From Comamonadaceae bacterium OS-1 (lineage in GTDB: Bacteria; Pseudomonadota; Gammaproteobacteria; Burkholderiales; Burkholderiaceae_C), in the NCBI GenBank assembly GCA_027923965.1, contig AP026969.1, positions 3,782,001 to 3,846,000 of the forward strand: a DNA stretch of 64,000 bases. The letters are read 5' to 3'. Made by a program: the position numbers and the translations under genes. Under the pieces are notes generated by a model. The model did no database searches. It saw nothing but the letters and a program-made list of their open reading frames with translations, and was not told where the DNA came from. Below, piece by piece: positions 21,695 to 59,060 of the stretch. Numbering within the stretch: position 1 is the stretch's first letter; the number at the start of each line of letters is the position of its first letter.

Positions 21695-23383
21695 ATGGAC
21701 AAGGTCTGGTTGAAGAGTTACCCCGCCGACGTGGCGCACGAAGTCGATGTCACGCCCTACAGTTCGCTGACCCAGCTGCTGGACGAGTCTTTCACCAAGC
21801 ACGCCGACAACCCCTTTTCGGTGTGCATGGAGCGCTGGATGAGCTACCGCGAACTCGACCAGCTGTCGGGCGCGCTGGGCGCGTGGCTGCAGGGCCAGGG
21901 GCTCAAGCCCGGTGCGCGGGTGGCCATCATGCTGCCGAACATTCCGCAGTTTGCCGTCACCATGGCCGCCGTGCTGCGCGCCGGGTACACCTGCGTCAAT
22001 GTGAACCCGCTGTACACCCCGCGCGAGCTGGAGCACCAGCTCAAGGACTCGGGGGCCACCGCCATCGTGATCCTGGAGAACTTTGCCCGCACGCTGCAAG
22101 AGGTAGTGGGCCGCACGCAGATCCAGCACGTGGTGATGGCCCACATGGGCGACCTGCTGGGTGCGGTGTATGGGCGCGTGGTCAATTTCATGGTCCGCCG
22201 GGTCAAGAAGCTGGTGCCCGCCTTCCAGCTGCCGCGCAACGGCACCCTGCGCGTCACACCCTTCAACCAGGCGCTGGCCGATGGCCGGGGCCGCGCGCTG
22301 CAGCCGCACCAGTGCACCATGGATTCCATCGCCTTTTTGCAGTACACCGGCGGCACTACAGGCCTGTCCAAGGGCGCGGTGCTGACCCACCGCAACATCG
22401 TGGCCGCCGCGCTGCAGACCGAGGCCTGGTTCACCCCGGCATTGGCGCGCGTGGGTGCGGCCCGCAATGTCAACATGGTGGCCGCCCTGCCGCTGTACCA
22501 CATCTACGCCCTGACCACCTGCCTGATGTGCGTGCGCCTGGGGGCCCACATCACCCTGGTGCCCAACCCGCGCGACTTTGCGGCCTTCATCGCCACACTG
22601 AAAAAACGCCCCTTCCACATCCTGCCCGCCGTCAACACCTTGTTCAACGCCTTGCTGCTGCAGCCCACGTTCAAGACCATCGACTTCTCCCATCTGTGCG
22701 TCACCCAGGCGGGTGGCATGGCGGCATCGGAAGGCACGGCCCAGCGCTGGCTGGAAGTCACCGGCAGCCCCATGGTGGAAGGCTGGGGCATGAGCGAAAC
22801 CTGCGCCGTGGGAACCAACAACCCGGTGCTGAGCAAGAGCTTCACCGGCACCATCGGCCTGCCCCTGCCCAGCATCGACCTGACCATCAAGGACGACGAG
22901 GGCAACGACCTGCCACTGGGTGCCGCAGGCGAAATCTGCATCAAGGGCCCCAACGTCACCACCGGCTACTACCACCAGCCCGAGGAAAACGCCCGTGCCT
23001 TCACCGCCGACGGCTACCTGCGCACCGGTGACATCGGCATGATGGACGAGCGCGGCTACACCCGCATCGTGGACCGCAAAAAAGACATGATTTTGGTCAG
23101 CGGCTTTAACGTGTTCCCCAACGAGCTGGAAAACGTCATTTCGCTCTGCCCCGGCGTGGTGGAATGCGCAGCCATCGGCGTGCCCGACGAGAAACAGGGC
23201 GAGGCCATCAAGGTGTTCATCGTGAAGAGCGACCCGGCCCTGACCGAAGCCGACGTGCTACTGTTCTGCAAGCAGAACCTCACCGGCTACAAGATGCCCA
23301 AGAGCATCGAGTTCCGCAAGGACCTGCCGAAGTCCAACGTGGGCAAGATCTTGCGCCGCGAGCTGCGCACCCCAACAACCTAA
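21695..23383 (+). CDS. fadD: Long-chain fatty acid--CoA ligase
   Basis: This enzyme activates fatty acids to acyl-CoA with ATP at the inner membrane. The 562-residue protein has the AMP-binding core QYTGGTTGLSKGAVLTHRN, the GWGMSET motif, and the LRTGDIG hinge followed by VDRKKDMILVSGFNVFPNEL. The C-terminal Lys motif is in LPKSNVGKILRREL. AAGGAG lies 8 bp before the ATG at 21695; the frame is open further upstream, but that part overlaps the terminator. The stop overlaps the convergent GntR gene by 4 bp. The chain-length preference is inferred from similarity to FadD rather than seen. Confidence 0.94.
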   Translation: MDKVWLKSYPADVAHEVDVTPYSSLTQLLDESFTKHADNPFSVCMERWMSYRELDQLSGALGAWLQGQGLKPGARVAIMLPNIPQFAVTMAAVLRAGYTCVNVNPLYTPRELEHQLKDSGATAIVILENFARTLQEVVGRTQIQHVVMAHMGDLLGAVYGRVVNFMVRRVKKLVPAFQLPRNGTLRVTPFNQALADGRGRALQPHQCTMDSIAFLQYTGGTTGLSKGAVLTHRNIVAAALQTEAWFTPALARVGAARNVNMVAALPLYHIYALTTCLMCVRLGAHITLVPNPRDFAAFIATLKKRPFHILPAVNTLFNALLLQPTFKTIDFSHLCVTQAGGMAASEGTAQRWLEVTGSPMVEGWGMSETCAVGTNNPVLSKSFTGTIGLPLPSIDLTIKDDEGNDLPLGAAGEICIKGPNVTTGYYHQPEENARAFTADGYLRTGDIGMMDERGYTRIVDRKKDMILVSGFNVFPNELENVISLCPGVVECAAIGVPDEKQGEAIKVFIVKSDPALTEADVLLFCKQNLTGYKMPKSIEFRKDLPKSNVGKILRRELRTPTT

Positions 23384-24123
23384 GAAGCTGCCGCCTGCCT
23401 GGCCACATGCACCTGGTGCAAGGTGATCTTGCGCACCTCGGCCTGGCTGCTCTGGATGTGGGCGCGCAGCAGCATGGCGGCCTGGTCGCCGCGGTGGCTG
23501 CGGATGGCCTTGAGGATCTTGGCGTGCTCCTCATACGTGGCGGTAATGCGCGCCTGCTTGGTGAAGTCCAGCCGCCGGATGATGCGGATGCGCTCGGTCA
23601 CGTCGCTGTGCACGCGGGCCATTTCGGTGTTGCCCGCGGCGCGCACCAGGGCGCAGTGGAATTCTTCGTCCCAGCGGGCCACGGCAATGCCGTCGGTGCT
23701 GCGCTGGGCCACCGGCACCAGCCAGATGGCCACCAGTTCCTCCAGCAGCGCGTGGTCGATCTGGATGTGCGGTGCCCCCGCGCCCGCGCCGCCTTCGCAC
23801 AGACGGTGGGCAGCGGTGGTTTCCAGCACCATGCGCAGGTCGTAGAGCTGCTCGAACTGCTCGAAATTGAACGGCAGCACGCGCCAGCCGCTGCGAAACA
23901 GCACCTCCACATAGCCCTCTTGCTGCAGCCGGATCAGCGCCTGCCGCACAGGGGTGCGCGACACGCCCAGGCGCTCGCTGATCTCGTTTTCGGTAAATCG
24001 GTCGCCGGGGACCAGGGTGAATTCGCCTACGTCGCGCTTGAGCTGGGCATAGACCTCGTCGGCGCGCGAGCGGTATACGGTGGGTTCTGCGGGGGGAGTG
24101 GGGGTGGGAGTCAGGGAGTGCAC
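23380..24123 (-). CDS. GntR family regulator (FCD/FadR-type), probable regulator of the ureide cluster
   Basis: I prefer the GTG start at 24123, which gives 247 residues; upstream codons overlap the preceding gene and are unlike the family. Residues 17-85 form the winged helix-turn-helix (LVPGDRFTENEISERLGVSR, TPVRQALIRLQQEGYVEV). The rest is an all-helical FCD ligand domain with metal-binding type residues (DLRMVLETTAAHRL, DEEFHCALVRAAGN, HAKILKAIRSHR). It is the last gene of the transporter-BiuH operon. FCD GntR proteins commonly bind TTGTATACAA-like palindromes. CTTGGATACAAG and CTTGTATCCAAG occur at the heads of both operons of the cluster, so it probably controls both. Confidence 0.88.
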   Translation of the reverse strand: MHSLTPTPTPPAEPTVYRSRADEVYAQLKRDVGEFTLVPGDRFTENEISERLGVSRTPVRQALIRLQQEGYVEVLFRSGWRVLPFNFEQFEQLYDLRMVLETTAAHRLCEGGAGAGAPHIQIDHALLEELVAIWLVPVAQRSTDGIAVARWDEEFHCALVRAAGNTEMARVHSDVTERIRIIRRLDFTKQARITATYEEHAKILKAIRSHRGDQAAMLLRAHIQSSQAEVRKITLHQVHVARQAAAS

Positions 24124-24157
24124 GGGGCAAACTTTAGCAGTTGCGGCCCAGCGGCTT

Positions 24158-24823
24158 TCACAGGGCGGCCAATGCCCGCAATACCGCCGTGCTGAGTGCC
24201 GTCCAGCCGACGATACCGCCCTGGGCGCGCACCATCTCCAGCGTGGCAGCCTTGAACTGCGGGAAGTAGCTCTCGGTGCAGTCTTCCAGCAGCAGGCCGT
24301 CATAGCCGCGGTCGTTGGCCTCGCGCATGCTGGTCTGCACGCAGACCTCGGTGGTTACGCCCATGAACAGCAGCTGCCCGATGCCGCGCTCTTGCAGCAT
24401 CTCGTGCAGGCCGGTGGCATAAAACGCACCTTTGCCGGGTTTGTCGATAACGATCTCCCCGTCCGCCGGGGCCAGCGCCGGGATGATCTGGTTGCCCGGC
24501 TCGCCCGCCACCAGGATGCGGCCCATGGCCCCCACATCGCCGATGCGCAGCGCCGGGTTGCCCCGGTTCAGCTTGGCCGGCGGGCAGTCGGACAGGTCGG
24601 GCCGGTGCGCCTCGCGGGTGTGCACCACCAGGCCGCCTGCGCTGCGCCAGGCGGCCAGCATGGCCTGGCAGGCGGGCACGATGGCCTCCAGCAGGGCCAC
24701 GTTGTTGCCCAGCGTGTCCCCGAAGCCGCCGGGCTCGATGAAGTCGCGCTGCATGTCGATGATGACCAGGGCGGCGTGGGGCAGGTCCAGCGGGTAGTCG
24801 AACGGCAGTGCGGGGATGTTCAT
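24158..24823 (-). CDS. Isochorismatase-family cysteine amidohydrolase, BiuH paralogue (candidate triuret hydrolase)
   Basis: The 221-residue protein has the family triad: Asp23 in VIIDMQRDF, Lys131 in DKPGKGAF and nucleophile Cys161 in [19 protein letters not shown]. It parallels BiuH, encoded two genes upstream, in layout ([31 protein letters not shown]) but is clearly diverged. The C-terminal region reads [10 protein letters not shown] where BiuH has DPANHQAA. In related clusters a BiuH paralogue (TrtA) hydrolyses triuret to carboxybiuret. That would supply the substrate of the AtzE/AtzG pair encoded here, so I propose this as a hypothesis. Its start overlaps the stop of the ABC ATPase by 4 bp in an ATGA junction. 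Confidence 0.8.
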
Positions 24824-26433
24824 GCAGCCTCCTGGTGGTGGTCATGGCCGCCGCCCATGTGCGCGCCGAGGATGTGGCGCTCGGCGGTGGCGGCGGGGGT
24901 TTCAAACACGATGCGGCCTTCGCTCATGACCACGATGCGGTCGGCCAGCTCCAGCAGCTCGTCCAGGTCTTCGCTGATCAGCAGCACCGCGCCGCCGCGG
25001 TCGCGCACGCCCAGGATGCGGCTGTGGATTTCGGCCACGGCGGCAAAGTCCAGGCCGAACACCGGGTTGGCCGCAATCAGCACATTGATCTCGCCCGCCA
25101 GCTCGCGGGCCAGCACGGCACGCTGCACATTGCCGCCCGACAGGCTGCGGATGGGCGCGCCCTCGCCTTGCGTCTTCACACCATATTCCTGAATCCAGTC
25201 GCGCGCCCGGTTGCGCCAGGTGCCAAAGCGCAGCAAGCCGCCCAGGTTCAGCGGCGGCTGGTCAAAGTCGCGCAGCGCCATGTTCTCGGCCACCGATAGA
25301 TCGCCCACGCAGGCATTGCGCAAGGGCTCTTCGGGCAGGCTGCGCACCTTGAGGCGGCGGTTGTCGGCGCGGCGGGCGGCGTAGTGCTCGCCCATCACCT
25401 CCACCCGGCCACTGAGGCGGGCGCGCTGGCCCACCAGCGCCTCCACCAGCTCGCGCTGGCCGTTGCCCGAGACCCCGGCCACGCCCAGGATTTCGCCCTT
25501 GCGCACCTGCAGGCTCAGGCCGTGCAGGGCCAAAGTTCCGCGATCGCCCTGGGCTTGCAAGTTGTCTACCTGCAGAGCGACGGGCGCATCATTTGCTACT
25601 GTTTTTGCAGCAAACTTTGCTAGAGCGACTGGCGGAGAGGCCGTATTTTGTTCAGAACTTTCGCCCATCATGGCCTGGGCCAGGGTGCGGGTGAGTTCCT
25701 GCGGTGCAGCACCGGCCACCCGGTCGTGGTGCACCGCTTTGCCACGGCGCAGCACGGTCACGCCATCGGCATAGGCCAGCACTTCGCGGAACTTGTGGGT
25801 GATGATGAGCACGCTGCACTGGCCGCTCTGGGCGAAGGCGCGCACGTGGCCCAGCACCTCGTCGGCCTCTTGCGGGGTGAGTACCGAGGTGGGCTCGTCC
25901 AGGATCAGCAGGCGGGGTTTGAGGTACAGCTGCTTGAGCAACTCCAGCTTCTGCTTTTCGCCCGCCGCCAGTTCGGCCGGGCGGGCATCCAGGTCCAGGC
26001 TGAAGGGCGTGGTGGCCAGAAAGGCCTTGAGCTCGGCGCGCTTGGCGGTCCAGTCGATCACCGCAGGCAGGGTGCCCCCGGCCAGCAGCAGGTTCTCGGC
26101 CACCGTCATGCCCGGTGCCAGCGTGAAGTGCTGATAGACCATGCCGATACCCAGGCTGCGCGCCACGATGGGGTTGGCAATGTCCTGCTCGCGCCCGTCG
26201 ATCAGGATGCTGCCCTCTTCCGCGCGCTGGAAGCCCGCCACGCATTTCACCAGGGTGCTTTTGCCTGCGCCGTTTTCGCCCAGCAGGGCGTGCACCGTGC
26301 CGGGTTCGACCCGCATGGTGACGCTGTCCATGGCGGTGAAGCTGCCGAAGCGCTTGGTCAGCAAATAGGTGTCCAGCGCCAGCGCGCCGGTGCCTGCCGG
26401 GAGCGCGCCGATGGGAGTGGAGTCGGGGGCCAT
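24820..26433 (-). CDS. ABC transporter ATP-binding protein with two ATPase domains (nucleoside/BMP type)
   Basis: The ATG at 26433 gives 537 residues. Domain 1 has Walker [13 protein letters not shown] near residue 57, a degenerate signature [12 protein letters not shown] and Walker [12 protein letters not shown]. Domain 2 has the degenerate Walker [13 protein letters not shown] typical of RbsA/NupA-type fused ATPases and the signature [15 protein letters not shown]. With the two permeases and the BMP receptor upstream it forms a complete importer. Residues near 260-280, between the domains, contain a segment ([20 protein letters not shown]) encoded by sequence like the dispersed repeat. Given BiuH and the Atz-type enzymes in the cluster, biuret or related ureides are the likely cargo; this is inference. 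Confidence 0.92.
25592..25653. repeat. Intragenic repeat-like insert in the ABC ATPase linker
   Basis: The plus strand begins TTTGCTACTGTTTTTGCAGC and ends AGAGGCCGTATTTTG. The inverse of the intergenic copy at 45392-45448 starts TTTGCTA and ends AGAGGCCCGATTT. It lies in frame in the linker between two ATPase domains, where an insertion is tolerable. Confidence 0.5.
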
Positions 26434-26447
26434 GGGGTTCCTTGGGG

Positions 26448-27137
26448 TTAGACAGCAGCCAACAGCGCGGCAGACGTGGCATGCGCACCGAACACACCGC
26501 CCTGCATGGTCACCATGTTCAGCGCCGCCTGGTGGTTGGCTGGGTCGGTGGCTGCCGTGCAGTCGGACAGCAGCAGGCACTCGTAGCCCCGGTCGTTGGC
26601 ATCGCGCATGGTGGTGTGCACGCACACGTCGGTGGTGATGCCGGCCAGGATGAGGTTTTGCACGCCACGCAGGCGCAGCACCATGTCCAGGTCGGTGGCA
26701 TAGAACGAGCCCTTGCCGGGCTTGTCGATCACCACCTCGCCAGGCAACGGGGCCAGCTCGGGAATGATCTCCCAGCCGGGTTCGCCGCGCACCAGGATGC
26801 GCCCGCAGGGCCCGGGGTCGCCAATGCCGACACCGCCCGCGCCGATTTGCCGCGAGCGCAAGCGCTTGTTGGCAGGCAGGTCGGCCAGGTCGGGCCGGTG
26901 CCCTTCGCGGGTATGGATGATGTGGTAGCCCAGGGGCCGCAGCCGGGCCAGCACGGCGGCAATCGGGGCGATGGGCGCGCGGGTCAGGCCGATGTCGTAG
27001 CCCATCACGTCCACATAGCCGCCCACGCCACAAAAGTCGGTCTGCATGTCGATCACGACCAGCGCCGTGTTGTCAGGCCGTAGGTCACCGTTGTACGGCC
27101 AGGCGTAGGGATTGGCATGCACGAAAAGAGATGTCAT
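26448..27137 (-). CDS. biuH: Biuret amidohydrolase (isochorismatase family)
   Basis: BiuH hydrolyses biuret to allophanate and ammonia. The 229-residue protein closely resembles Rhizobium-type BiuH as I know it: DPYPWPYNG-like start ([18 protein letters not shown]), [43 protein letters not shown] and [11 protein letters not shown]. The catalytic residues Asp30, Lys142 (DKPGKGSF) and Cys172 ([19 protein letters not shown]) are visible. I start at the ATG at 27137, which gives the family N-terminus. It is in the operon of a BMP-type ABC transporter, 14 bp before the ATPase gene. A 225-bp spacer with a structured repeat separates it from the permease gene upstream. Its product would go to the AtzF-like allophanate hydrolase. 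Confidence 0.9.
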
Positions 27138-27216
27138 GTCGTGTGCTCGCATGCGTTCAGGAGGCTGGTGTTTAAGCAACGGGCCGAGGGCACTTGGCAC
27201 CGCTCTATTGGCTCGC

Positions 27217-27307
27217 GACGATGGTGTGCTCTGCGCAGCGAAATAAAGGAGGAGCCTCGGCCATAGGCCGGGCGGGGGACATTCGCGGAGCAGAGCACAC
27301 CGTCGGC
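27217..27307. repeat. Structured inverted repeat inside the transporter operon
   Basis: Two 26-base arms pair at 22 positions, with a perfect 12-base core GGTGTGCTCTGC / GCAGAGCACACC at 27223-27234 and 27290-27301. The 39-base centre contains GGCCATAGGCC. A second, shorter pairing (GGGGGACATTCG with CGAATGCCCCCC) extends to about 27332. It separates the permease gene from biuH. It has the look of a dispersed miniature element rather than a simple terminator. Confidence 0.7.
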
Positions 27308-27362
27308 GTGGGCCCGCCCCGAATGCCCCCCACAGCGTTGCATCAAAAAATGCACGTCCATC

Positions 27363-28283
27363 TCAGCGCACCGAAGACAGTTCGCCCGGGCTGCCCACGG
27401 CCACGCTGCCGGGTTTGCAGGTCAGCACCAGAATCACCAGGGTCAGCACATAAGGCACGGTATTGAACAAGTGGTAGCCCCAGCCTATGCCCACCGACTG
27501 CATGGCCGGGCCGATAGCCCCCGCGCCGCCGAACAGCAGGGCCGCGCCCACGCAGCGCAGGGGGCTCCAGCGCGCAAAAATCACCAGCGCCACCGCGATC
27601 AGGCCCTGGCCGCTGGAGATGCCCTCGTTCCAGCTACCGGGGTAAAACAAGGTGAGCGACGCACCGCCCAAACCGGCCATGAATCCCCCCGCCGCCGTGG
27701 CCGCGATGCGAATGCCCGACACCGAATAGCCCAGCGCCCGCGTGGCATTGGCCGAGTCGCCCGCCAGCCGTACCAGCAGGCCCCAGCGGGTGCGCGCAAA
27801 CGCCCACCACAAAGCCACGGCCAAGGCGATGCCAATGGGCAGCAGCGCATTGATCTGCAAGGCCGCCTGCACCACGGTGGAGTCGCTCCAGCCACCCAGG
27901 GCGATGGCCGGAATCTGCGGTGCCTGGGGCTGGATCAAAGGCTTGCCCAGGTAGAAGGCCAGCCCCGTGCCCAGCAGCATCAGCGCAATGCCGGTAGCGA
28001 CATCGTTGACCCGTGGCAGCGAGCACAGCACGCCGTGCAAGGTAGCCAGCAGCGCGCCCGCCATCGCCCCGGCCAGCACACCCAGCCAGGGCGAACCGGT
28101 GAGGTAGGCACCGCCAAAAGCCGTCATGGCCGACAGCACCAGCACGCCCTCCAACCCCAGGTTGATGCGGCCGGATTTTTCTGTGAGGCATTCGCCCAGG
28201 CTCACGAACAGGAACGGCGTGCCGACCCGCAATGCGCCGCCGATGATCCCCGCAAACAAGGCTACCCATTGGTCTGCAGTCAT
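27363..28283 (-). CDS. ABC transporter permease (BMP/nucleoside type)
   Basis: This 306-residue membrane protein has about eight to nine hydrophobic segments and the branched-chain/ribose-type permease signature (RINLGLEGVLVLSAMTAFGG; later ALGYSVSGIRIAATAAGGFM and GISSGQGLIAVALVIFARW). It matches the second permease (NupC/BmpC type) of nucleoside-class importers. Its ATG overlaps the stop of the first permease gene by 4 bp. It is followed by a 225-bp spacer carrying an inverted repeat before biuH, which may uncouple or modulate expression of the downstream genes. Confidence 0.92.
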   Translation of the reverse strand: MTADQWVALFAGIIGGALRVGTPFLFVSLGECLTEKSGRINLGLEGVLVLSAMTAFGGAYLTGSPWLGVLAGAMAGALLATLHGVLCSLPRVNDVATGIALMLLGTGLAFYLGKPLIQPQAPQIPAIALGGWSDSTVVQAALQINALLPIGIALAVALWWAFARTRWGLLVRLAGDSANATRALGYSVSGIRIAATAAGGFMAGLGGASLTLFYPGSWNEGISSGQGLIAVALVIFARWSPLRCVGAALLFGGAGAIGPAMQSVGIGWGYHLFNTVPYVLTLVILVLTCKPGSVAVGSPGELSSVR

Positions 28284-29326
28284 GTGGCCTCCACCGGTTT
28301 ACGCATCCTGGCAAACACCGTTTTCCAGTCCACGTCGCGCAGCGCTTCGCTGGCCAGGATCAGCACAAAGGCAATGCCTTGCAGCACCATCACCGACGCG
28401 TCCGGCAGGCCCAGGCGGCGCTGCAGCAGGCTGCCTGCGGCACCAAAACCGCCGAACAAAATAGCCACCGGCACGATGGCCACCGGGTTGTGCCGGGCGA
28501 TGAAGGACACCAGGATGCCCGCGTAGCCGTAGCCTGAGATCAGCGAGGCGTTGGCATTGGTGTGCACCGCCGCCACTTCTACCGCTCCGGCCAACCCGGC
28601 ACCGGCACCGCCCAGGGCGCAGGCCGTCAAGATCAGTTGCGTGGCGGGCAGGCCCACCAGTTGCGCCGCGCGCGGGTTGCCACCCACCACGCGGATCGAG
28701 AAGCCCGATGCCGTCCAGCGCAGCCACAGCCCCAGGGCCACGCAGGCCAGCACGCCCAGCACCAGGCCCCAGTGCACGTCCGAGCCCGCAATGCCGGTGA
28801 TCAGCATGCCCTCGGGCAGGGAGTGGGTGGCGGGTTTGTTCAGGCTGGCGGGGTCGCGCAACAGGCCTTCCACCAGGTGCTTGAAGATGCCGATGGCGAT
28901 GTAGGCCAGCAGCAGGCTGCTGATGGTTTCGTTGATGCCCCGCGCCTGCCGCAGCCAGCCCGCCAGCACGATCCACAGCGCCCCGGCCAGCGCACCCACG
29001 GCGCAGGCCAGCGCGGTGCCCAGCAGGTTGGCCGGTAGCGGCAGCAGGGTGCCTGCGGCGGCACAGGCCAGGCCGCCCAGCACCAAAGCGCCTTCCCCGC
29101 CGATGATGACCAGCCCGGCCCGCGCAGGCAGCGCCACGCACAGGGCTGTGAGCATCAGCGGTGCGGAGCGCTGCAACGTGTTTTGCCACGAAAACCAGTC
29201 GCCGAACGCGCCCTTGAACAGGGTCAGCCACATGTCCGCGGGGTTGACCCCGGCGAACCAGACGAACACACCGAACAGCAGCAGCGCCAGCGCGATGGCC
29301 GAGGTCGGCAGCAGGATGTCTTTCAT
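28280..29326 (-). CDS. ABC transporter permease (BMP/nucleoside type)
   Basis: This 348-residue integral membrane protein has about ten hydrophobic helices. Family sequence includes WQNTLQRSAPLMLTALCVAL, GLVIIGGEGALVLGGLACAA, GINETISSLLLAYIAIGIF and GYGYAGILVSFIARHNP. It is the first permease of the importer. It starts 9 bp after the receptor gene and overlaps the second permease by 4 bp, so all three are translated from one message. With the receptor and the double ATPase it should form an inner-membrane importer for a small polar nitrogen compound; cargo is inferred from the neighbouring ureide hydrolases. Confidence 0.92.
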   Translation of the reverse strand: MKDILLPTSAIALALLLFGVFVWFAGVNPADMWLTLFKGAFGDWFSWQNTLQRSAPLMLTALCVALPARAGLVIIGGEGALVLGGLACAAAGTLLPLPANLLGTALACAVGALAGALWIVLAGWLRQARGINETISSLLLAYIAIGIFKHLVEGLLRDPASLNKPATHSLPEGMLITGIAGSDVHWGLVLGVLACVALGLWLRWTASGFSIRVVGGNPRAAQLVGLPATQLILTACALGGAGAGLAGAVEVAAVHTNANASLISGYGYAGILVSFIARHNPVAIVPVAILFGGFGAAGSLLQRRLGLPDASVMVLQGIAFVLILASEALRDVDWKTVFARMRKPVEAT

Positions 29327-29335
29327 GGCCGTGGC

Positions 29336-30448
29336 TTAGAAACTGCCTTGCACGCCTTCAACCAGGTAGTTCATGCTTTCCAAGACCGGATCGGTCTGCT
29401 TGAAGACCTTGCCTGCGGCGATGACCTCCTTGCCCTTGTTGTCCTTCAGCGGGCCCTTGAAGATGTCGAACTTGTCGGCCAGCATCTGCGCCTTGGTGCC
29501 GTCGGCCTGCTTCTTGGCGGCATCGGTCACCATGGCACCGTAGGGCGATGTTTTCACATAGCCGTCTTTCAGGCCGCCGCGCAAAAAGTTGGGGTGCGGC
29601 TTGCCGGACTGGGCCGCGTCGATGGCGGTCTTGTAGGCGGTGAACCAGTTCCACTCCGCACCGGTGAGGTAGGCATTGGGGGCCAGCTTGGCCTGGCTGG
29701 CGTGGTAGCCGCAGACCATCTTGCCGCGCTTGGCGGCGGTTTCCACGATGACCTTGGGGCCGTCCACGTGCATGGTGAACACATCGCAGCCCTGGTCGGC
29801 CAGGCTGTTGGTGGCCTCGGCCTCTTTCACCGCCATGGACCAGTCGCCGGTGAAGATCACGCTGCAGGTGATGCCGGGCTTGACCGAGCGCGCACCCAGG
29901 GTGAAGGCGTTGATGTTGCGCAGCACCTGCGGGATCGGCTTGGCCGCTAAGAAGGCTATCTTGCCGCTCTTGCTCATGTGCCCGGCGATCACACCGTTCA
30001 GAAACTGGCATTCGTCGATGTAGCCAAAGAAGCTGCCCACGTTCTTGGGGTGCTTGCCCTCGGTCCACATGCCGCCGCAGTGCGAGAAGCGCACGTCGGG
30101 GTACTTGGCGGCCAGCGCCAAGACATGGGGGTCGAAGTAGCCGTACGAGGTGGGAAACAGCAGCTTGGCACCGTCTTGCGCAATCATGCCGGTCATGGTT
30201 TTTTGCACCGCCGAGGTTTCGGGCACGTTCTCTTCTTCCACCACCTTGATGCCGGGCAGCTTCTTGGCCTCGGCCGCTGCCGCCGCCTGCGACTGGTTGT
30301 AGCCGTAGTCGTCACGCGGGCCGACGTAGATCACGCCGATGGTCAGCGGTGTCTGCGCCCGGGCCAAACTGCCCAGACCACCCAGCGTGCTGGCAGCGCC
30401 CAGGGCGGCGATGGTTTTCAGGGAGTCGCGGCGGTTGAAGGTGGTCAT
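29336..30448 (-). CDS. BMP family ABC transporter substrate-binding protein
   Basis: The ATG at 30448, preceded by AAAGGA, gives 370 residues. The N-terminus (FNRRDSLKTIAALGAAS) has paired Arg and a hydrophobic stretch ending LARA, a plausible twin-arginine signal. The mature part is a BmpA/PnrA fold (IGVIYVGPRDDYGYNQSQAA, LLFPTSYGYFDPHVLALAAK, FFGYIDECQFLNGVIAGHMS). Such receptors bind nucleosides or other small heterocycles. Here the operon also encodes BiuH and a paralogue, so biuret-like ureides are the probable ligand. A candidate GntR operator lies 64 bp upstream of the start, marking the promoter of this second operon. Confidence 0.92.
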   Translation of the reverse strand: MTTFNRRDSLKTIAALGAASTLGGLGSLARAQTPLTIGVIYVGPRDDYGYNQSQAAAAAEAKKLPGIKVVEEENVPETSAVQKTMTGMIAQDGAKLLFPTSYGYFDPHVLALAAKYPDVRFSHCGGMWTEGKHPKNVGSFFGYIDECQFLNGVIAGHMSKSGKIAFLAAKPIPQVLRNINAFTLGARSVKPGITCSVIFTGDWSMAVKEAEATNSLADQGCDVFTMHVDGPKVIVETAAKRGKMVCGYHASQAKLAPNAYLTGAEWNWFTAYKTAIDAAQSGKPHPNFLRGGLKDGYVKTSPYGAMVTDAAKKQADGTKAQMLADKFDIFKGPLKDNKGKEVIAAGKVFKQTDPVLESMNYLVEGVQGSF

Positions 30449-30511
30449 GGCAGTCCTTTCGGTGTTGACAGCGTGGGTTTGGATCAAAACGGTGCGTAAA
30501 ACAGAATCCTT

Positions 30512-30535
30512 CTTGGATACAAGTGAGGATGCAAA
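30512..30535. promoter_or_regulatory. Candidate GntR operator at the head of the transporter operon
   Basis: CTTGGATACAAG, four bases, then GATGCAAA on the plus strand. The same arrangement, ungapped and with the same orientation, occurs upstream of atzF at 34266-34289. The 12-base dyad resembles TTGTATACAA sites of FCD-type GntR proteins, one of which is encoded in this operon. Confidence 0.68.
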
Positions 30536-30550
30536 ATGCGTGCCTAGGCG

Positions 30551-30931
30551 CTACTCCAGCAGACTGACGTGCGCCGCCACCACTTTCCAGCCTGCAGGCA
30601 TGCGCAGCCAGGTCTGGCTTTGGCGGCCGGTGCGGGTGCCGCCATCGCGCAAAAACTCCACATTGGCGGTGGCAAAGTCGTGGCCGTAGGTGGTGATGAC
30701 GGTCTTGAGCAGGCGGCGCTGCTGGCCCTGGGCCGGACGGCCTGCGCGGAAGGCCTGGATGGCCTCGAAGCCGTACAGGTTTTCGGTGCCGCCATAGCGC
30801 AGGGTGTGCGGGCTGTCCCAGAACAGTGCGTCCAGCACGGCCACGCGGTTGTGCACCAGGGCATCCTCGTAGCGGTCAAACACGGCCTGCACTTCGGCCA
30901 ATACGTCGGGCAGGTTGATGGCGTAGTCCAT
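30551..30931 (-). CDS. atzH: AtzH/HpxZ-like protein (DUF3225)
   Basis: This 126-residue single-domain protein has an NTF2-like cone fold. Family residues are clear: [59 protein letters not shown] and [21 protein letters not shown]. In the cyanuric acid pathway of Pseudomonas ADP, AtzH converts 1,3-dicarboxyurea, made by AtzE, into allophanate. Homologues (HpxZ) occur in purine catabolism. Here it is the last gene of an atzF-G-E-H operon, 9 bp after atzE, which supports the AtzH role. It keeps the ureide route from ending in dicarboxyurea. Confidence 0.85.
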
Positions 30932-30940
30932 GGGTTTCCT

Positions 30941-32365
30941 TCAGAGATGGGCGACCGGGGCGCGGCACACGCCCGCGGCCTCCAGCACGGCGGCGGCGCG
31001 CAGCACCAGGTCTTCGCGCCAGGGCGCGGCAATCACCTGCACGCCGATGGGCAAATGCGGCAGCTGCGGGTCCATGCCCCACACCGGCACGGCGCATACC
31101 GGCAGGCCGATGCAGGAGATGGGCTGGGTCAGCACGCCGATGTTGGGGCGCAGCGGCAAGTCGCGACCATTCAGGTCCAGCCGCTCGGTGCCCAGAAGCG
31201 TGGTAGCGCAGGGCGTGGCGGGCGTGAGCAGCAGGTCGTATTTTTCAAACACCTGGGCGGCGGCCTGGGCGTAGCGGCGGCGCACCCGCTGGGCGCGAGC
31301 CACCCAGGCGGCGGGGATCAGCGCACCGGCCAGAAAGCGGTCGCGCGACAGGGGTTCAAAGTCTTGCGGGCGGCGGCGCAGGTTGTCCAGGTGCAGGGCT
31401 GCGCTTTCGGAGTTGGTGAGCAGGAAGGCGGCGGCACGGCCTGCTTCGACCCAGGGCAGCTCCACTGTGTCGTGCGCGCCCAGTGCCTGCGCCACAGCGG
31501 CCACGGCGGCGCGGGCGGGGGGCAAGGCGTTGTCATGGAAATAGCCGCCCAGCACGCCAATGCGCAGTCCGGCAATACCCAAGTCCAGCTCAGTGACTAC
31601 CGTTTCTGTAGCACGTTGTGCGCATCCAGCGTCCACAAACGGGCTGTTTTCTTCACAACCCTGCATTGCGTCATAGGCCAGGGTCAGGTCGCGCACGCTG
31701 CGGGCAAACGGGCCCAGGTGGTCCAGGCTGGTGACGAACGGAAAGCTGCCGGTGCGCGGCAAGCGCCCAAACGTGGGCTTGAGGCCGAACACGCCGCACA
31801 TCGACGAGGGCACGCGGATGGAGCCATTGGTGTCCGAGCCCAGCGCCAGCGGCACCTGCCCCGCCGCCACCGCTGCGCCCGAGCCGCCCGAGGAGCCGCC
31901 TGCGGTGCGGGCCAGGTCGTGCGGGTTGTGGCAGGCACCCTCGTGGGTGTTCTCGGTGGTGAAGCCGTAGGCGTATTCGTCCATGTTCAGCGCGCCGACC
32001 AGGATGGCCCCTGCCGCCTCCATGCGCTGCACCAGCAGGCCGTCGGCCGTGGCGGGGGCGCTGTCGCGCTCGATCTTGGAGCCCGCCAGCGTGCGCAGCC
32101 CGGCAATGTCGAACAGATTTTTCACCGCGAAGGGCACGCCCAGCAAGGGCAGCGTCGCCTGGCTGCCATCCGCCAGGCCCGCGTCGATCTGCGCGGCACG
32201 CTGCAGAGCCCGGGCTTGCACCACGTCGGTGAAGGCGTTGACGCGGCTGTCGGTAGCCGCAATGCGGTCCAGGCAGGCCTGCACCAGTTGCGTGGCCGTC
32301 ACCTCGCGGGCCGCCACGGCCCGGGCCATGCTGGCTGCGTCTTGCTGCCACCAGTCGGCGGTCAT
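30941..32365 (-). CDS. atzE: AtzE family amidase (1-carboxybiuret hydrolase, catalytic subunit)
   Basis: This 474-residue amidase-signature enzyme has a Ser-cisSer-Lys triad: Lys82 in FAVKNLFD, cis-Ser near 158 in RTAGGSSGGSGAA and nucleophile Ser182 in GSDTNGSIRVPS. AtzE deaminates 1-carboxybiuret and needs the small partner AtzG for stability. That partner is encoded directly upstream with a 4-bp ATGA overlap. Residues near 235-256 (EENSPFVDAGCAQRATETVV) are encoded by a stretch that resembles a degenerate dispersed repeat. No cyanuric acid hydrolase (atzD) is in the window, so the carboxybiuret may arise from triuret or be imported. Confidence 0.88.
   Translation of the reverse strand: MTADWWQQDAASMARAVAAREVTATQLVQACLDRIAATDSRVNAFTDVVQARALQRAAQIDAGLADGSQATLPLLGVPFAVKNLFDIAGLRTLAGSKIERDSAPATADGLLVQRMEAAGAILVGALNMDEYAYGFTTENTHEGACHNPHDLARTAGGSSGGSGAAVAAGQVPLALGSDTNGSIRVPSSMCGVFGLKPTFGRLPRTGSFPFVTSLDHLGPFARSVRDLTLAYDAMQGCEENSPFVDAGCAQRATETVVTELDLGIAGLRIGVLGGYFHDNALPPARAAVAAVAQALGAHDTVELPWVEAGRAAAFLLTNSESAALHLDNLRRRPQDFEPLSRDRFLAGALIPAAWVARAQRVRRRYAQAAAQVFEKYDLLLTPATPCATTLLGTERLDLNGRDLPLRPNIGVLTQPISCIGLPVCAVPVWGMDPQLPHLPIGVQVIAAPWREDLVLRAAAVLEAAGVCRAPVAHL
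31598..31660. repeat. Possible degenerate repeat insert within atzE
   Basis: CTGTAGCACG and GGGCTGTTTTCTTCA at the two ends, with GCGCATCCAGCG between them, resemble the outer and central blocks of the dispersed repeat. The match is weak and no second strong copy of this subtype is present here, so this is tentative. Confidence 0.3.
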
Positions 32366-32562
32366 GGACTGCTCCTGGGCGTGACGGGAATAAAGGCCAT
32401 GGGCGATTCATCGTGCACGGTCAGGGGCGTGGCATTCACGATGTCGGCAAAGCCCGAGGCCAGGGCGAAGTAGCGCAGCACGCCGGGGCGCGATATACCT
32501 AATTCCAGGCCAATGGCTGCGGCTGCCGCATCGACGTAGGTTTCCAGCTCGTGTTCGGTCAT
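32362..32562 (-). CDS. atzG: AtzG-like small subunit (DUF4089)
   Basis: This is a 66-residue protein beginning MTEHELETYVDAAAAAIGLE. In families that carry it, AtzG is a short helical subunit that binds AtzE in a GatC/GatA-like manner and is required for active enzyme. The gene is embedded between atzF and atzE with ATGA overlaps at both ends (32559-32562 and 32362-32365), so the three proteins are tightly coupled in translation. The middle part LGISRPGVLRYFALASGFAD fits the family, as I know it. The final Pro-rich tail (PVTPRSSP) is unremarkable. Confidence 0.82.
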   Translation of the reverse strand: MTEHELETYVDAAAAAIGLELGISRPGVLRYFALASGFADIVNATPLTVHDESPMAFIPVTPRSSP

Positions 32563-34250
32563 TTCTGCAACTCCCCTTGGACATACGCGCGCCATCCGCC
32601 CCAGTGGCTGATATCCCGCGCCCCCGCCAGTGCCTGCGGCTCGCAGATAAAGCCCTGCACGCTGCTGCCATCGGCCAGCACCAGCGTGCCTATGCCCAGC
32701 GGGGCCGGAATCAGCGCCACAAAAGAGCCGTAGTGCGCCACCGGCATCTCCCACACCTCCACGGCAATGCCTGTGCCCTGGCCGGGCGCGACGCGCAGCA
32801 AACCGGGCTTGGGCGGCACGGTACCGGGCAGGGCAAACAGCTGGTAGTCCGGCGCGGTCGTGGTGCTGGCAACCAGGCGGGCCTGGCGCTCGGTCAACTG
32901 GCTGTTCAAAGGCATGCCGGACAGATGGGCTCCAACCACCGCCACCTTGACAACGGCCTGCGGCTGGAGGCCGGGCAATGGCTGTGGCGCAGGCAAGGGC
33001 AGATCCAGCGCCCCCTGCAGCATGCCGCTGGCATGGTGGTAGCGCTGGCCCAGCTCGGCCAGCTGCCAGTCGCTACCGCAGGGGCCGATCAGCGTGATGC
33101 CAAACGGCAGGCCGTCGGCGCGCAGGCTGCTGGGCACGGAGATGGCGGCGTAATCCAGCAGGTTGACGAAGTTGGTGTACGCACCCAGGTTGCGGTTCAG
33201 CACCACCGGGTCGGCCTGCATCTGCGCAATGGTGTAGTGCGTGGGTGCGGTGGGCACCAACAGCACGTCGATACCGCCCCACATGGTGGCGGCCTGCTGG
33301 CCGTAGACCCGCAAACGCACTTGGGCATCGACCAGATCGGCGGCGCTGTAGCCCCGCCCGCTGGCCAGAATGCTGCGCACCGGCTCGATGACCTCGGCCT
33401 CGTGCGCATCAAAGAAGCCGCGCACGGCGGCATAGCGCTCGGCCACCAGTGCGCTGTCGTACAGCAGCGCGGCCGCGGCCGCCAGCGGGGCGTAGGCAAT
33501 GGTGACGGGCGTGCCGCCCAGGTCGCGCAGCTGGTAGATGGCCTGCTGGAAGGCCGCTTCGGCTGCGGTGTCGCCAAAAAAGGCCAGGGTGTCGGGCACG
33601 CCAAAGCGAAACTGCGCCGGAAAGGGGCTGCTGGCCAAGGCCAATGAACGCGAAAACGGGTCCAGCGGGTCGTAGCCCATGGCGGCCTGCAGCACCTGGG
33701 CGGCAGTGCCCACGCTGCGCGCGAAGATGGACACGCAGTCCACGCTTTGCGCCGCAGGCACCAGCCCCCGGGTGCTGACCAGGCCCTTGGACGGCTTGAT
33801 GCCAACGATGTTGTTCAACCCGGCGGGCACGCGGCCCGACCCGGCGGTGTCGGTGCCCAACGCAAAGTCCACCTGCCCGGTGGCCACCACATAGGCCGAA
33901 CCCGAGCTGGAGCCGCCCGACACGTAGGCGGCGTTGAACGCATTCGGCACCGCGCCATAAGGCGAGCGCGTGCCGTTCAGGCCGCAGGCAAACTGGTCCA
34001 GATTGGTTTTTCCCAGCAGCGATGCACCGGCTTGCAGCAGCTTGTGCACCACGCTGGCATGCGCAGTGGGCGCATAGGCAAAGGCGGGGCAAGCGGCAGT
34101 GGTGGGCAGGCCCAGCACGTCGATGTTGTCCTTGACCGCAAAGCGCAAACCCGCCAAGGGGCCGTGCGCCGCGCCCGCGATGGGGGACGCACTGCGCGAC
34201 AACCAGGCTGCGGCGGCGGTACCAATGTTCTGCGTTGGGGCTTGCACCAT
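32559..34250 (-). CDS. atzF: Allophanate hydrolase (AtzF-like)
   Basis: The enzyme would hydrolyse allophanate to ammonia and CO2, the last step of the biuret and cyanuric acid routes. The 563-residue protein has an amidase domain with Lys40 (FAVKDNIDV), cis-Ser near 114 (VSGGSSSGSAYVV) and Ser138 (GTDTAGSGRVPAG). A C-terminal allophanate-hydrolase domain of about 130 residues follows from roughly residue 425 (VKVAVVGAHLSGMPLN, YQLFALPGTVPPKPGLLRV, GGWRAYVQGEL). I use the ATG at 34250, with a weak GGGA upstream; an ATG at 34265 is possible. It heads the atzF-G-E-H operon. A candidate GntR operator ends 16 bp before the start. Confidence 0.9.
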   Translation of the reverse strand: MVQAPTQNIGTAAAAWLSRSASPIAGAAHGPLAGLRFAVKDNIDVLGLPTTAACPAFAYAPTAHASVVHKLLQAGASLLGKTNLDQFACGLNGTRSPYGAVPNAFNAAYVSGGSSSGSAYVVATGQVDFALGTDTAGSGRVPAGLNNIVGIKPSKGLVSTRGLVPAAQSVDCVSIFARSVGTAAQVLQAAMGYDPLDPFSRSLALASSPFPAQFRFGVPDTLAFFGDTAAEAAFQQAIYQLRDLGGTPVTIAYAPLAAAAALLYDSALVAERYAAVRGFFDAHEAEVIEPVRSILASGRGYSAADLVDAQVRLRVYGQQAATMWGGIDVLLVPTAPTHYTIAQMQADPVVLNRNLGAYTNFVNLLDYAAISVPSSLRADGLPFGITLIGPCGSDWQLAELGQRYHHASGMLQGALDLPLPAPQPLPGLQPQAVVKVAVVGAHLSGMPLNSQLTERQARLVASTTTAPDYQLFALPGTVPPKPGLLRVAPGQGTGIAVEVWEMPVAHYGSFVALIPAPLGIGTLVLADGSSVQGFICEPQALAGARDISHWGGWRAYVQGELQK

Positions 34251-34265
34251 GTTGAAACATCCCAT

Positions 34266-34289
34266 CTTGTATCCAAGACGAGATGCAAA
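34266..34289. promoter_or_regulatory. Candidate GntR operator at the head of the atzF operon
   Basis: CTTGTATCCAAG, four bases, then GATGCAAA on the plus strand, 16 bp upstream of the atzF ATG. Eighteen of the 20 specified positions are identical to the site at 30512-30535; the two differences swap symmetrically within the dyad (T/G and C/A). Position so close to the start suggests repression by blocking transcription. Confidence 0.68.
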
Positions 34290-34438
34290 CAGTGTGCCAA
34301 CTTGCATGGGTGCCGACGTTAAGAGCAGCCATGGTTTGGCAGGGTGGTTACGGCCTCCAGCCGATTTTGGGCCGCCCTGGTTAAAATCGCGGGTTGCCTA
34401 CCTGCCTGGTAGCGCCCCGTTTTGCTCTGGAAACCACC

Positions 34439-57797: not shown

Positions 57798-59060
57798 TTG
57801 GAACATCTCTTCTCCGGCTCTGCCATCCAGATGCTGTTCGACTTCACGTTCTACTACCCCCTGTTCATGTCCTACCTGTGGATGTGCGGCGGGCTGTACT
57901 ACTACTTCCACTACGAGCGCAACGACCCGCCCTACGACCAGCCGCCTGCGCTCACCGAATACCCCGCGGTCAGCATTCTGGTGCCCTGCCACAACGAGGC
58001 CAGCAACATCGAAGACACGGTGGAGGCTCTGCTGGCCATCAACTACCCCACCTTCGAAATCCTGCTGATCGACGATGGCAGCACCGATGCGTCGCCCCAG
58101 ATGCTGGATGCCATCGCCCGCCAGGACAGCCGCGTGCGCGTCATCCACCTGGCCAAAAACCAGGGCAAGGCGGTGGGCCTAAACACCGCCGCCATGATGG
58201 CCAAATACGACTTCTTTTTGTGCATCGACGGCGACTCGTTGGTAGACCCGCACTGCCTGCACTGGATGATGCGGCACCTGGTCAACAGCCCGCGCGTCGG
58301 CGCGGTATCGGGCAACCCGCGCATCCGCACCCGGTCGACGCTGATCGGCCGCATCCAGGTGGGCGAATTCTCTTCTATCATTGGTCTGATCAAGCGGGCC
58401 CAGCGCACCTACGGAAAGATGTTCACGGTGTCAGGCGTGATGGTGTGCTTTCGCCGTGCGGCATTACACGACGCCGGCTACTGGAACCCGGACGCATTGA
58501 CCGAAGACATCGACATCAGCTGGCGGCTGCAAATGCGCCACTGGGATGTGCGCTTTGAACCGAATGCCTTGTGCTGGATTCTGATGCCCGAAACCCTGCG
58601 CGGTTTATGGCGGCAGCGCCTGCGCTGGTCCATGGGCGGCACACAGGTGCTGTTCAGCCAGAACGGTTTGTTCGGCCGCTGGCGGCACCGCCGCATGCTG
58701 CCGGTGTACCTGGAGTACTTCACCAGCGTGCTCTGGGCCTACACCATGGCGGCGGTATTCGCGCTGTGGACGCTCAAGCACTTTGTCCCACTGCCGCCTG
58801 CCTTGGTCATCGACACCCTGCTGCCGGAATGGAATGGCCTGGTGATCGGCACCACCTGCCTGCTGCAATTTGCCGTCAGCATGGCGCTGGACGCGCGCTA
58901 CGAAAAAGGCATGGGCCGCTACTACTACTGGATGATCTGGTATCCGCTGGCATTTTGGATTTTGAACGTCTTCACCACCCTGGTGGCCGTACCCAAGGTA
59001 CTGCTGCGCGGCAAACAGCGTGCCACCTGGAAAAGCCCGGACCGGGGGCTGCAACCATGA
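57798..59060 (+). CDS. pgaC: Poly-beta-1,6-N-acetylglucosamine synthase (GT2 family)
   Basis: PgaC polymerises UDP-GlcNAc at the inner membrane. The 420-residue protein has an N-terminal membrane helix pair and a GT2 catalytic domain with VSILVPCHNEASNIEDTVEA, LLIDDGSTD, the metal DxD in FLCIDGDSLVD, the catalytic TEDIDISWRL and the QRLRWSMGG motif. Two to three C-terminal membrane helices follow. It starts from TTG at 57798, supported by AGGAGA 6 bp upstream, and there is no in-frame ATG near. Its stop overlaps the pgaD start by 4 bp, indicating tight coupling of synthase and accessory subunit. Confidence 0.95.
   Translation: MEHLFSGSAIQMLFDFTFYYPLFMSYLWMCGGLYYYFHYERNDPPYDQPPALTEYPAVSILVPCHNEASNIEDTVEALLAINYPTFEILLIDDGSTDASPQMLDAIARQDSRVRVIHLAKNQGKAVGLNTAAMMAKYDFFLCIDGDSLVDPHCLHWMMRHLVNSPRVGAVSGNPRIRTRSTLIGRIQVGEFSSIIGLIKRAQRTYGKMFTVSGVMVCFRRAALHDAGYWNPDALTEDIDISWRLQMRHWDVRFEPNALCWILMPETLRGLWRQRLRWSMGGTQVLFSQNGLFGRWRHRRMLPVYLEYFTSVLWAYTMAAVFALWTLKHFVPLPPALVIDTLLPEWNGLVIGTTCLLQFAVSMALDARYEKGMGRYYYWMIWYPLAFWILNVFTTLVAVPKVLLRGKQRATWKSPDRGLQP

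Follow-up and report, generated by a model that had tools for sequence, protein, structure and literature searches.

Comamonadaceae bacterium OS-1 has a one-contig genome of 5.12 Mb, and the window analysed here is the stretch of 64,000 nucleotides (nt) that covers its bases 3782001-3846000. Eleven genes, all on the minus strand, run from position 34250 of the window down to position 23380 in the order atzF, atzG, atzE, atzH, bmp, two permease genes, biuH, an ABC ATPase gene, a gene for a second hydrolase of the isochorismatase-like (IHL) type, and a GntR/FCD regulator gene. We read them, with a probability of about 0.82, as a two-operon nitrogen-scavenging regulon for linear ureides, which would import triuret and biuret and break them down to ammonia. 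An initial annotation had proposed a triuret/biuret pathway at this place, and the analysis supports that proposal, with the qualification that the module is a general carboxybiuret route. The BMP-type importer, BiuH-like hydrolase, paralogous hydrolase and GntR gene were all located leftward on the minus strand, as that annotation had it. By coordinates, 4-nt (ATGA) overlaps join atzF to atzG, atzG to atzE, the two permease genes to each other and the ABC ATPase gene to that of the second hydrolase; of the overlaps described earlier for atzF-atzG-atzE-atzH, those on both sides of atzG are real, whereas atzE and atzH lie 9 nt apart without overlap.

The two hydrolases

The products of biuH (26448..27137, minus strand) and of the second hydrolase gene (24158..24823, minus strand) both belong to the isochorismatase-like hydrolases and are 50.5% identical. 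The former scores 414 bits with the BiuH model NF050097 (cut-off 370) and is 73% identical over 223 residues to the BiuH of Rhizobium leguminosarum (PDB 6AZO); the latter scores 248 bits, below the cut-off, as expected of a paralogue. It is nearer to TrtA than to BiuH, with 67.8% identity over 208 residues to 6XIX, the crystallised TrtA of Herbaspirillum (PMC7948467, cited throughout from part of its text), versus 47.7% over 214 residues to 6AZO, and with E values of 1e-88 for 6XIX, its best PDB match, versus 7e-63 for the BiuH structure 6XJM. The Asp-Lys-Cys triad (D24, K129 and C162 in TrtA numbering), which the initial annotation had called intact in the paralogue, is present in both hydrolases. 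The second hydrolase agrees with 6XIX at 14 of 14 positions, namely the triad and F29, F35, N41, E72, K132, A134, T158, E160, Y187, Q202 and I205. Six of these (F35, N41, A134, E160, Y187 and I205) have been singled out as differences between TrtA and BiuH (PMC7948467), and it has the TrtA-type letter at all six, whereas 26448..27137 has the BiuH letters Y35, Y41, S134, D160, T187 and V205, a signature identical to that of 6AZO.

The same division runs through the relatives. A scan of named genomes gave at least 593 pattern matches and at least 554 relatives, of which the best 80 loci were kept; the closest locus among these is that of Rhodoferax sp. OV413 (L004), with a second hydrolase 91% identical to that of the window. 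In the set of rows collected, these were labelled TrtA or BiuH by their best BLAST match. All 110 labelled TrtA read DFFNEKK[A/M]TECYQI, and 84 of the 101 labelled BiuH read DFYYEKKSTDCTQV, the other 17 being gapped, single variants or unrelated hydrolases passed by a loose filter. Half of the rows (121 of 242, with L004-L083 thinned to one in five) entered a tree, built by a quick method and including several long rows, in which the second hydrolase and 6XIX share a 47-row clade with an SH-aLRT support of 100; no grouping with unrelated amidohydrolases was seen. The clade and the 14 identical residues bear out the earlier proposal that the paralogue is TrtA, and by its sequence we assign 24158..24823 as trtA, the gene of a predicted triuret hydrolase.

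Three branches beside the TrtA clade hold 26 rows of IHL proteins with 56-63% identity to the TrtA of the window. Because 25 of the 26 carry the TrtA letters (the remaining one is truncated), these proteins may be further TrtA lineages; their loci (within L113, L119-L127 and L163-L179, not every number) are mostly outside a BiuH/importer operon. A wastewater plasmid of Citrobacter freundii (L092) carries a trtA-biuH-atzF operon with an importer and a GntR gene, and 265 plasmid records, including some of Enterobacterales from clinical samples, match the TrtA of the window at E ≤1e-50, a threshold that also admits BiuH.

AtzF, AtzG, AtzE and AtzH

Allophanate hydrolase, encoded by atzF (32559..34250, minus strand), has amidase and AH_C domains, scores 755 bits with TIGR02713 (curated cut-off 511), matches PDB 4GYR at E 1.7e-159 and is 52.6% identical to the AtzF of plasmid pADP-1 over 534 residues. 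We place its start at the ATG of position 34250; extended to 34307, the frame would start upstream of a promoter-like site described below. AtzE (30941..32365, minus strand) exceeds the cut-off of its curated model NF006631 by 224 bits (685 versus 461), matches the AtzE chain of 6C62 at E 4e-156 and is 56.7% identical to pADP-1 AtzE over 457 residues. It is the one AtzE-grade match in its own genome, the other four amidase matches having 31-40% identity. AtzG, the small GatC-like partner of AtzE (32362..32562, minus strand), is weak by sequence, with the AtzG chain of 6C62 as its only PDB match (E 0.0016) and 34% identity to pADP-1 AtzG over 53 residues, but clear by position, between atzF and atzE with a 4-nt overlap on either side. 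By the family score of AtzE and the adjoining AtzG, AtzEG is a predicted 1-carboxybiuret hydrolase. The NTF2-fold protein AtzH, a predicted 1,3-dicarboxyurea decarboxylase (30551..30931, minus strand), scores 205 bits with the AtzH/HpxZ model (cut-off 135) and 200 bits with PF11533, matches AtzH 6BJT at E 2e-47 and has nine of nine published pocket residues (PMC6219798), including Tyr22, Arg46 and the arginine-rich pocket. The frames of atzE, atzG and atzH are open.

Linkage to TrtA and the place of AtzD

In 200 genomes from the family of the source organism, AtzE (E ≤1e-110) was found in 52 and TrtA (E ≤1e-75) in 53: both in 41, AtzE only in 11, TrtA only in 12 and neither in 136 (Fisher p 8e-22, relatedness ignored). 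The two genes were on one contig in 36 of the 41 genomes that have both, always within 20 kb, and on different contigs in five. At six loci, trtA comes straight after atzE(-atzH), without an intervening BiuH (L018, L029, L042, L075, L076 and L010, the last with no AtzH called). At E 1e-110, AtzE is found in just four of 274 genomes of the class, two of them from the source's family. This linkage supports the earlier suggestion that triuret feeds AtzE and AtzG.

The initial annotation had also noted that there is no cyanuric acid hydrolase, AtzD, and had taken this as an argument against cyanuric acid as the origin of the carboxybiuret. The observation is correct, as AtzD had no match in the whole genome in a search that was positive in 10 of 299 genomes of the phylum and eight of the 200 of the family. 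As an argument it needs qualifying, since the same operon of the nearest relatives holds AtzD; for that reason the module also suits cyanuric acid. AtzD is found inside triuret operons on two Rhizobium plasmids, the order atzF-G-E-H also stands behind atzD on a Pseudomonas putida plasmid, and seven of the eight family genomes with AtzD also have AtzE (comparison by hand). AtzD and TrtA are described as yielding the same product (PMC7948467). The module is better described as a route for carboxybiuret, which TrtA, AtzD or both can supply, than as one for triuret only. In the phylum sample, a TrtA-type match (E ≤1e-75) accompanies AtzD in nine of 10 genomes, compared with 29 of 299 overall; several of these matches fall on the side branches next to that clade of TrtA proteins.

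Importer and regulator

The importer consists of a BMP/PnrA-type periplasmic binding protein (29336..30448; PF02608, 138 bits), two permeases (28280..29326 and 27363..28283; PF02653, 104 and 115 bits) and an ATPase with two ABC stretches (24820..26433; PF00005 twice), all on the minus strand. Among solved structures, AtzT (6PI5) is closest to the binding protein, whose pocket reads Y S Y Q W H D and which keeps Tyr45 and Trp194, the residues that sandwich the ligand in AtzT (PMC6834077, available in part). Where AtzT has Glu165, Asn218 and Asn220, the protein of the window has Gln, His and Asp, and so do all 99 of the relatives fetched (≥55% identity). A purine importer was considered, guanine-binding AtzT being the nearest relative, and rejected because these three polar contacts differ. 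We infer that a planar non-purine ligand, such as biuret or triuret, would fit.

The regulator gene (23380..24132, minus strand, start approximate) encodes a GntR/FCD protein (PF00392 and PF07729). Many triuret operons, L248, L005-L007, L085, L087, L088 and L090-L092 among them, differ from the window in that a gene for an AmiF-like formamidase separates the second permease gene from biuH (43 loci in one count), where the window has a 225-nt gap; a search of the window's junctions for formamidase remnants gave matches only at E 1.0 or weaker.

Promoter-like and operator-like sites

Sites were scored against the sigma-54 consensus on a scale of our own that runs to 15. A promoter-like site with a score of 14 precedes each operon, at 34285..34299 before atzF and at 30531..30545 before bmp (both minus strand), and 23 nt into each lies a palindromic, operator-like word, CTTGGATACAAG at 34266..34277 and, in the other orientation, CTTGTATCCAAG at 30512..30523. 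Some 95 nt to the right of the first promoter-like site begins a plus-strand gene that we take to resemble prfC. Both strands of the window hold four sites scoring 14 or 15, of which the remaining two are at 59025 and 7930, against 0.35 per strand in 20 shuffles. There are two copies of the word CTTGKATMCAAG in the window, one placed 23 nt into each of the two sites that precede the operons; two matches were found in none of 100 shuffles.

Among 99 relatives, 49 have a site of at least 13 near the bmp start, against 193 of 5000 control stretches. Under a looser rule, which asks for a site of at least 12 and TTGNATNCAA no more than 60 nt away, 25 of 99 bmp and seven of 20 atzF upstream regions have the pair, as do 10 of 5000 controls; in 29 of the 32 cases in relatives the spacing is exactly 23 nt. 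That both operons begin with a sigma-54-like site followed 23 nt on by the same palindrome suggests one nitrogen-controlled regulon. The ADP operons have been reported to be sigma-54-dependent and nitrogen-controlled (PMC6834077). The palindrome also lies near a sigma-54-like site before atzF at three family loci that have AtzE and neither TrtA nor AtzD (L239, L240 and L242).

Carboxybiuret handling and proposed AtzH types

The genes that may handle carboxybiuret vary between TrtA operons. The 122 TrtA-labelled loci, in which genes were called with simple open reading frame and BLAST rules, include several truncated stretches and are rich in related species; they were counted apart from the side-branch IHL loci, L250 and L225, whose hydrolase was script-labelled BiuH-like. 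Of the 122, 83 have an AtzH-family gene, 57 AtzE and 13 a small cupin, and none has cupin and AtzH together. Three stretches that reach well past the operon (L092, L113 and L116) have no AtzH, AtzE or cupin. The window has AtzEG with AtzH at the place of the cupin, or of AtzH alone, of other triuret operons. The TrtA-linked small cupin is perhaps TrtB; these cupins had no match in the window (best E 0.16), nor in the genome, by a search without positive control. One genome, G079, would hint that TrtB can be AtzH-like if it were that of an ammonia oxidiser, and it gave no AMO match in a search that likewise had no positive control.

AtzH itself divides with the presence of AtzE. Of 100 AtzH proteins taken from the loci, all 69 whose stretch includes AtzE have Arg66, versus one of the 31 from stretches without AtzE, where Leu, Thr, Ser, Cys or Val otherwise replaces it; absence of AtzE is genome-wide (E 1e-110) for eleven family genomes and G319, and is judged for the other loci from the stretch. 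In the sole exception, L080, the contig starts about 560 nt ahead of atzH, and its AtzE may thus have been cut off. Without it, position 66 carries full information on the AtzE label, at the top of all columns and followed by positions 71, 72, 49 and 53. In a tree of AtzH, built by a quick method from few columns, the Arg66 and AtzE labels change five times each on the same branches and agree in every row but L080; starred branches hold only one independent pair, which is not enough to reach significance. Arg66 is found in the AtzH of the window, in keeping with a partner of AtzEG, and in the Pectobacterium homologue 2RCD; Pectobacterium is among the genera reported to have an atzG-atzE-atzH cluster (PMC6219798, available in part). 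The impaired AtzH variants named there are Y22A, Y22F, R46A, R46K and R63K; variants of Arg66 were made and, in the available text, are not among them, which counts against a catalytic role.

These patterns suggest two types of AtzH. Tentatively, at a little short of even odds, we propose that carboxybiuret handling is an exchangeable step (small cupin, AtzEG with AtzH, AtzH alone or occasionally none) and that the two types differ in function. One, with Arg66 and Leu53, would act with AtzEG on 1,3-dicarboxyurea, whereas the other, without Arg66 and mostly with Gln or His at position 53, would be a carboxybiuret decarboxylase feeding BiuH that arose several times where AtzEG is missing. If so, Arg66 would serve as a residue-level test to tell which of the two decarboxylations a given AtzH carries out. 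The solved structure 2OWP (Bxe_B1374), of an AtzH homologue to which no function has been given, has Cys at position 66, and by the Arg66 rule should lie in an operon without AtzE.

Proposed pathway and alternatives

The reading that we favour builds on family membership, residues, linkage and sites. The BMP-type importer would take up biuret and triuret, and TrtA would convert triuret to 1-carboxybiuret with release of one ammonia. AtzE with AtzG would then deaminate carboxybiuret to 1,3-dicarboxyurea, AtzH would decarboxylate this to allophanate, and AtzF would convert allophanate to ammonia and CO2. BiuH would act on imported biuret and on biuret arising from spontaneous decarboxylation of carboxybiuret, for which a half-life of about 20 min is given (PMC7948467). 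By the published reactions, either branch would free all four nitrogens. Judging from the sites, both operons would be read from sigma-54 promoters when nitrogen is limiting, and the GntR protein encoded beside them would repress both at the shared palindrome over the start site until a ureide is present.

Several findings weigh against this scheme. AtzD lies between atzH and bmp in Rhodoferax sp. OV413 and in a congener (G703, locus L248). In ten of the 52 family genomes with AtzE, neither TrtA nor AtzD passes the thresholds, and five of these genomes (G686, G744, G760, G804 and G828) are at least 99% complete, from which it follows that AtzE can serve another substrate source. AtzE stands without a called AtzH in five of the 57 TrtA loci that have AtzE. 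Where there is BiuH, the AtzEGH branch is in principle dispensable: the stretches of 29 of the 122 TrtA loci have BiuH and AtzH but neither AtzE nor AtzD. The pair of site and palindrome, even by the loosened rule, is found in only the 25 of 99 bmp and seven of 20 atzF upstream regions given above. At the near-complete genomes lacking TrtA and AtzD, atzF, atzE, atzH and a GntR gene stand together in L237, L239, L240 and L242, and atzF, atzE and a GntR gene in L241; the genes between atzF and atzE in L237 look by eye, without a family search, like a different ABC importer.

Those genomes bear on the idea that the substrate of AtzE, AtzG and AtzH is another ureide, for instance one of the oxalurate type named for their HpxYZ relatives, and that these enzymes share only regulation with the triuret genes. 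Clusters of atzG, atzE and atzH do occur with other neighbours (PMC6219798), and the ten genomes, with four loci that group atzF, atzE, atzH and GntR without TrtA and one seemingly different importer, point the same way. We nevertheless hold this unlikely for the window, as TrtA is present in 41 of the 52 AtzE genomes, within 20 kb in all 36 one-contig cases, and the curated AtzE model is so far exceeded. It is quite unlikely that the cluster is a cyanuric acid cluster minus AtzD, with AtzEGH a relic beside biuret/triuret genes, even though OV413 and its congener have AtzD in this very operon and pADP-1 and the P. putida plasmid hold it with the same genes. The window lacks some 1.16 kb between atzH and bmp relative to OV413, and its 102-nt junction has no AtzD-like stretch (a search for remnants in the window's junctions gave matches only at E 1.0 or weaker, and none there). 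In L008, L030 and L046, atzH and bmp are close together without AtzD, which favours an insertion in the OV413 lineage; AtzD is found in eight family genomes compared with 53 for TrtA, and the open frames of atzE, atzG and atzH argue against a relic. It is least probable, and very improbable, that the second hydrolase acts as another biuret hydrolase, or acts promiscuously on ureides with a natural substrate other than triuret: the two enzymes share fold family, triad and half of their residues, but all six distinguishing positions of the second are of the TrtA type.

Comparison with known systems

Biuret and triuret are by-products in urea fertiliser, for which the window appears to hold a co-regulated import and breakdown set. 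The triuret pathway and its parts are already published, as is a layout of this kind from 2018; the cluster is a variation on a known pathway, and a well-supported one. As far as seen, the joining of TrtA to AtzEGH is new, and so are the proposed AtzH types, the promoter and operator words that the two operons share and the letters of the binding protein. In the open-access literature, which leaves most subscription papers and supplements outside the scope, no description was found that joins TrtA to AtzEGH in one operon; AtzEG is mentioned as a known enzyme that takes the product of TrtA (PMC7948467).

The Rhodoferax and Variovorax clusters of Esquirol 2018 (PMC6219798), in which genes for ABC transporters and amidases lie downstream of those for allophanate hydrolase and of atzG-atzE-atzH, are by description of the same type; the available text does not name the amidases BiuH or TrtA and gives no substrate. 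That study left open the role of many atzG-atzE-atzH clusters without AtzD, and the linkage across the family points mainly to triuret. If so, enzymes of herbicide breakdown would be shared with, or derived from, a pathway for a ureide that occurs both naturally and in fertiliser. In close relatives, the ring opener AtzD sits in what is otherwise the same operon.

The TrtA-TrtB-BiuH-AtzF pathway of Herbaspirillum sp. BH-1 (Tassoulas 2020, PMC7948467) has TrtA, BiuH, AtzF and a BMP-type importer in common with the window, which differs in having no detected relative of the TrtA-linked cupin and in having AtzG, AtzE and AtzH, which should be able to take carboxybiuret. A triuret pathway with bmpA-nupABC and trtB has also been proposed for ammonia-oxidising bacteria (PMC12625717, available in part). 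The atzDGEHF operon on pADP-1 of Pseudomonas sp. ADP shares AtzG, AtzE, AtzH and AtzF; the window has TrtA for AtzD, BiuH in addition, a GntR instead of a LysR-type regulator and the order F-G-E-H. Sigma-54 promoters and nitrogen control are reported for that operon (PMC6834077), a further likeness to the window with its sigma-54-like sites. The cluster combines two routes that have previously been described in separate pathways.

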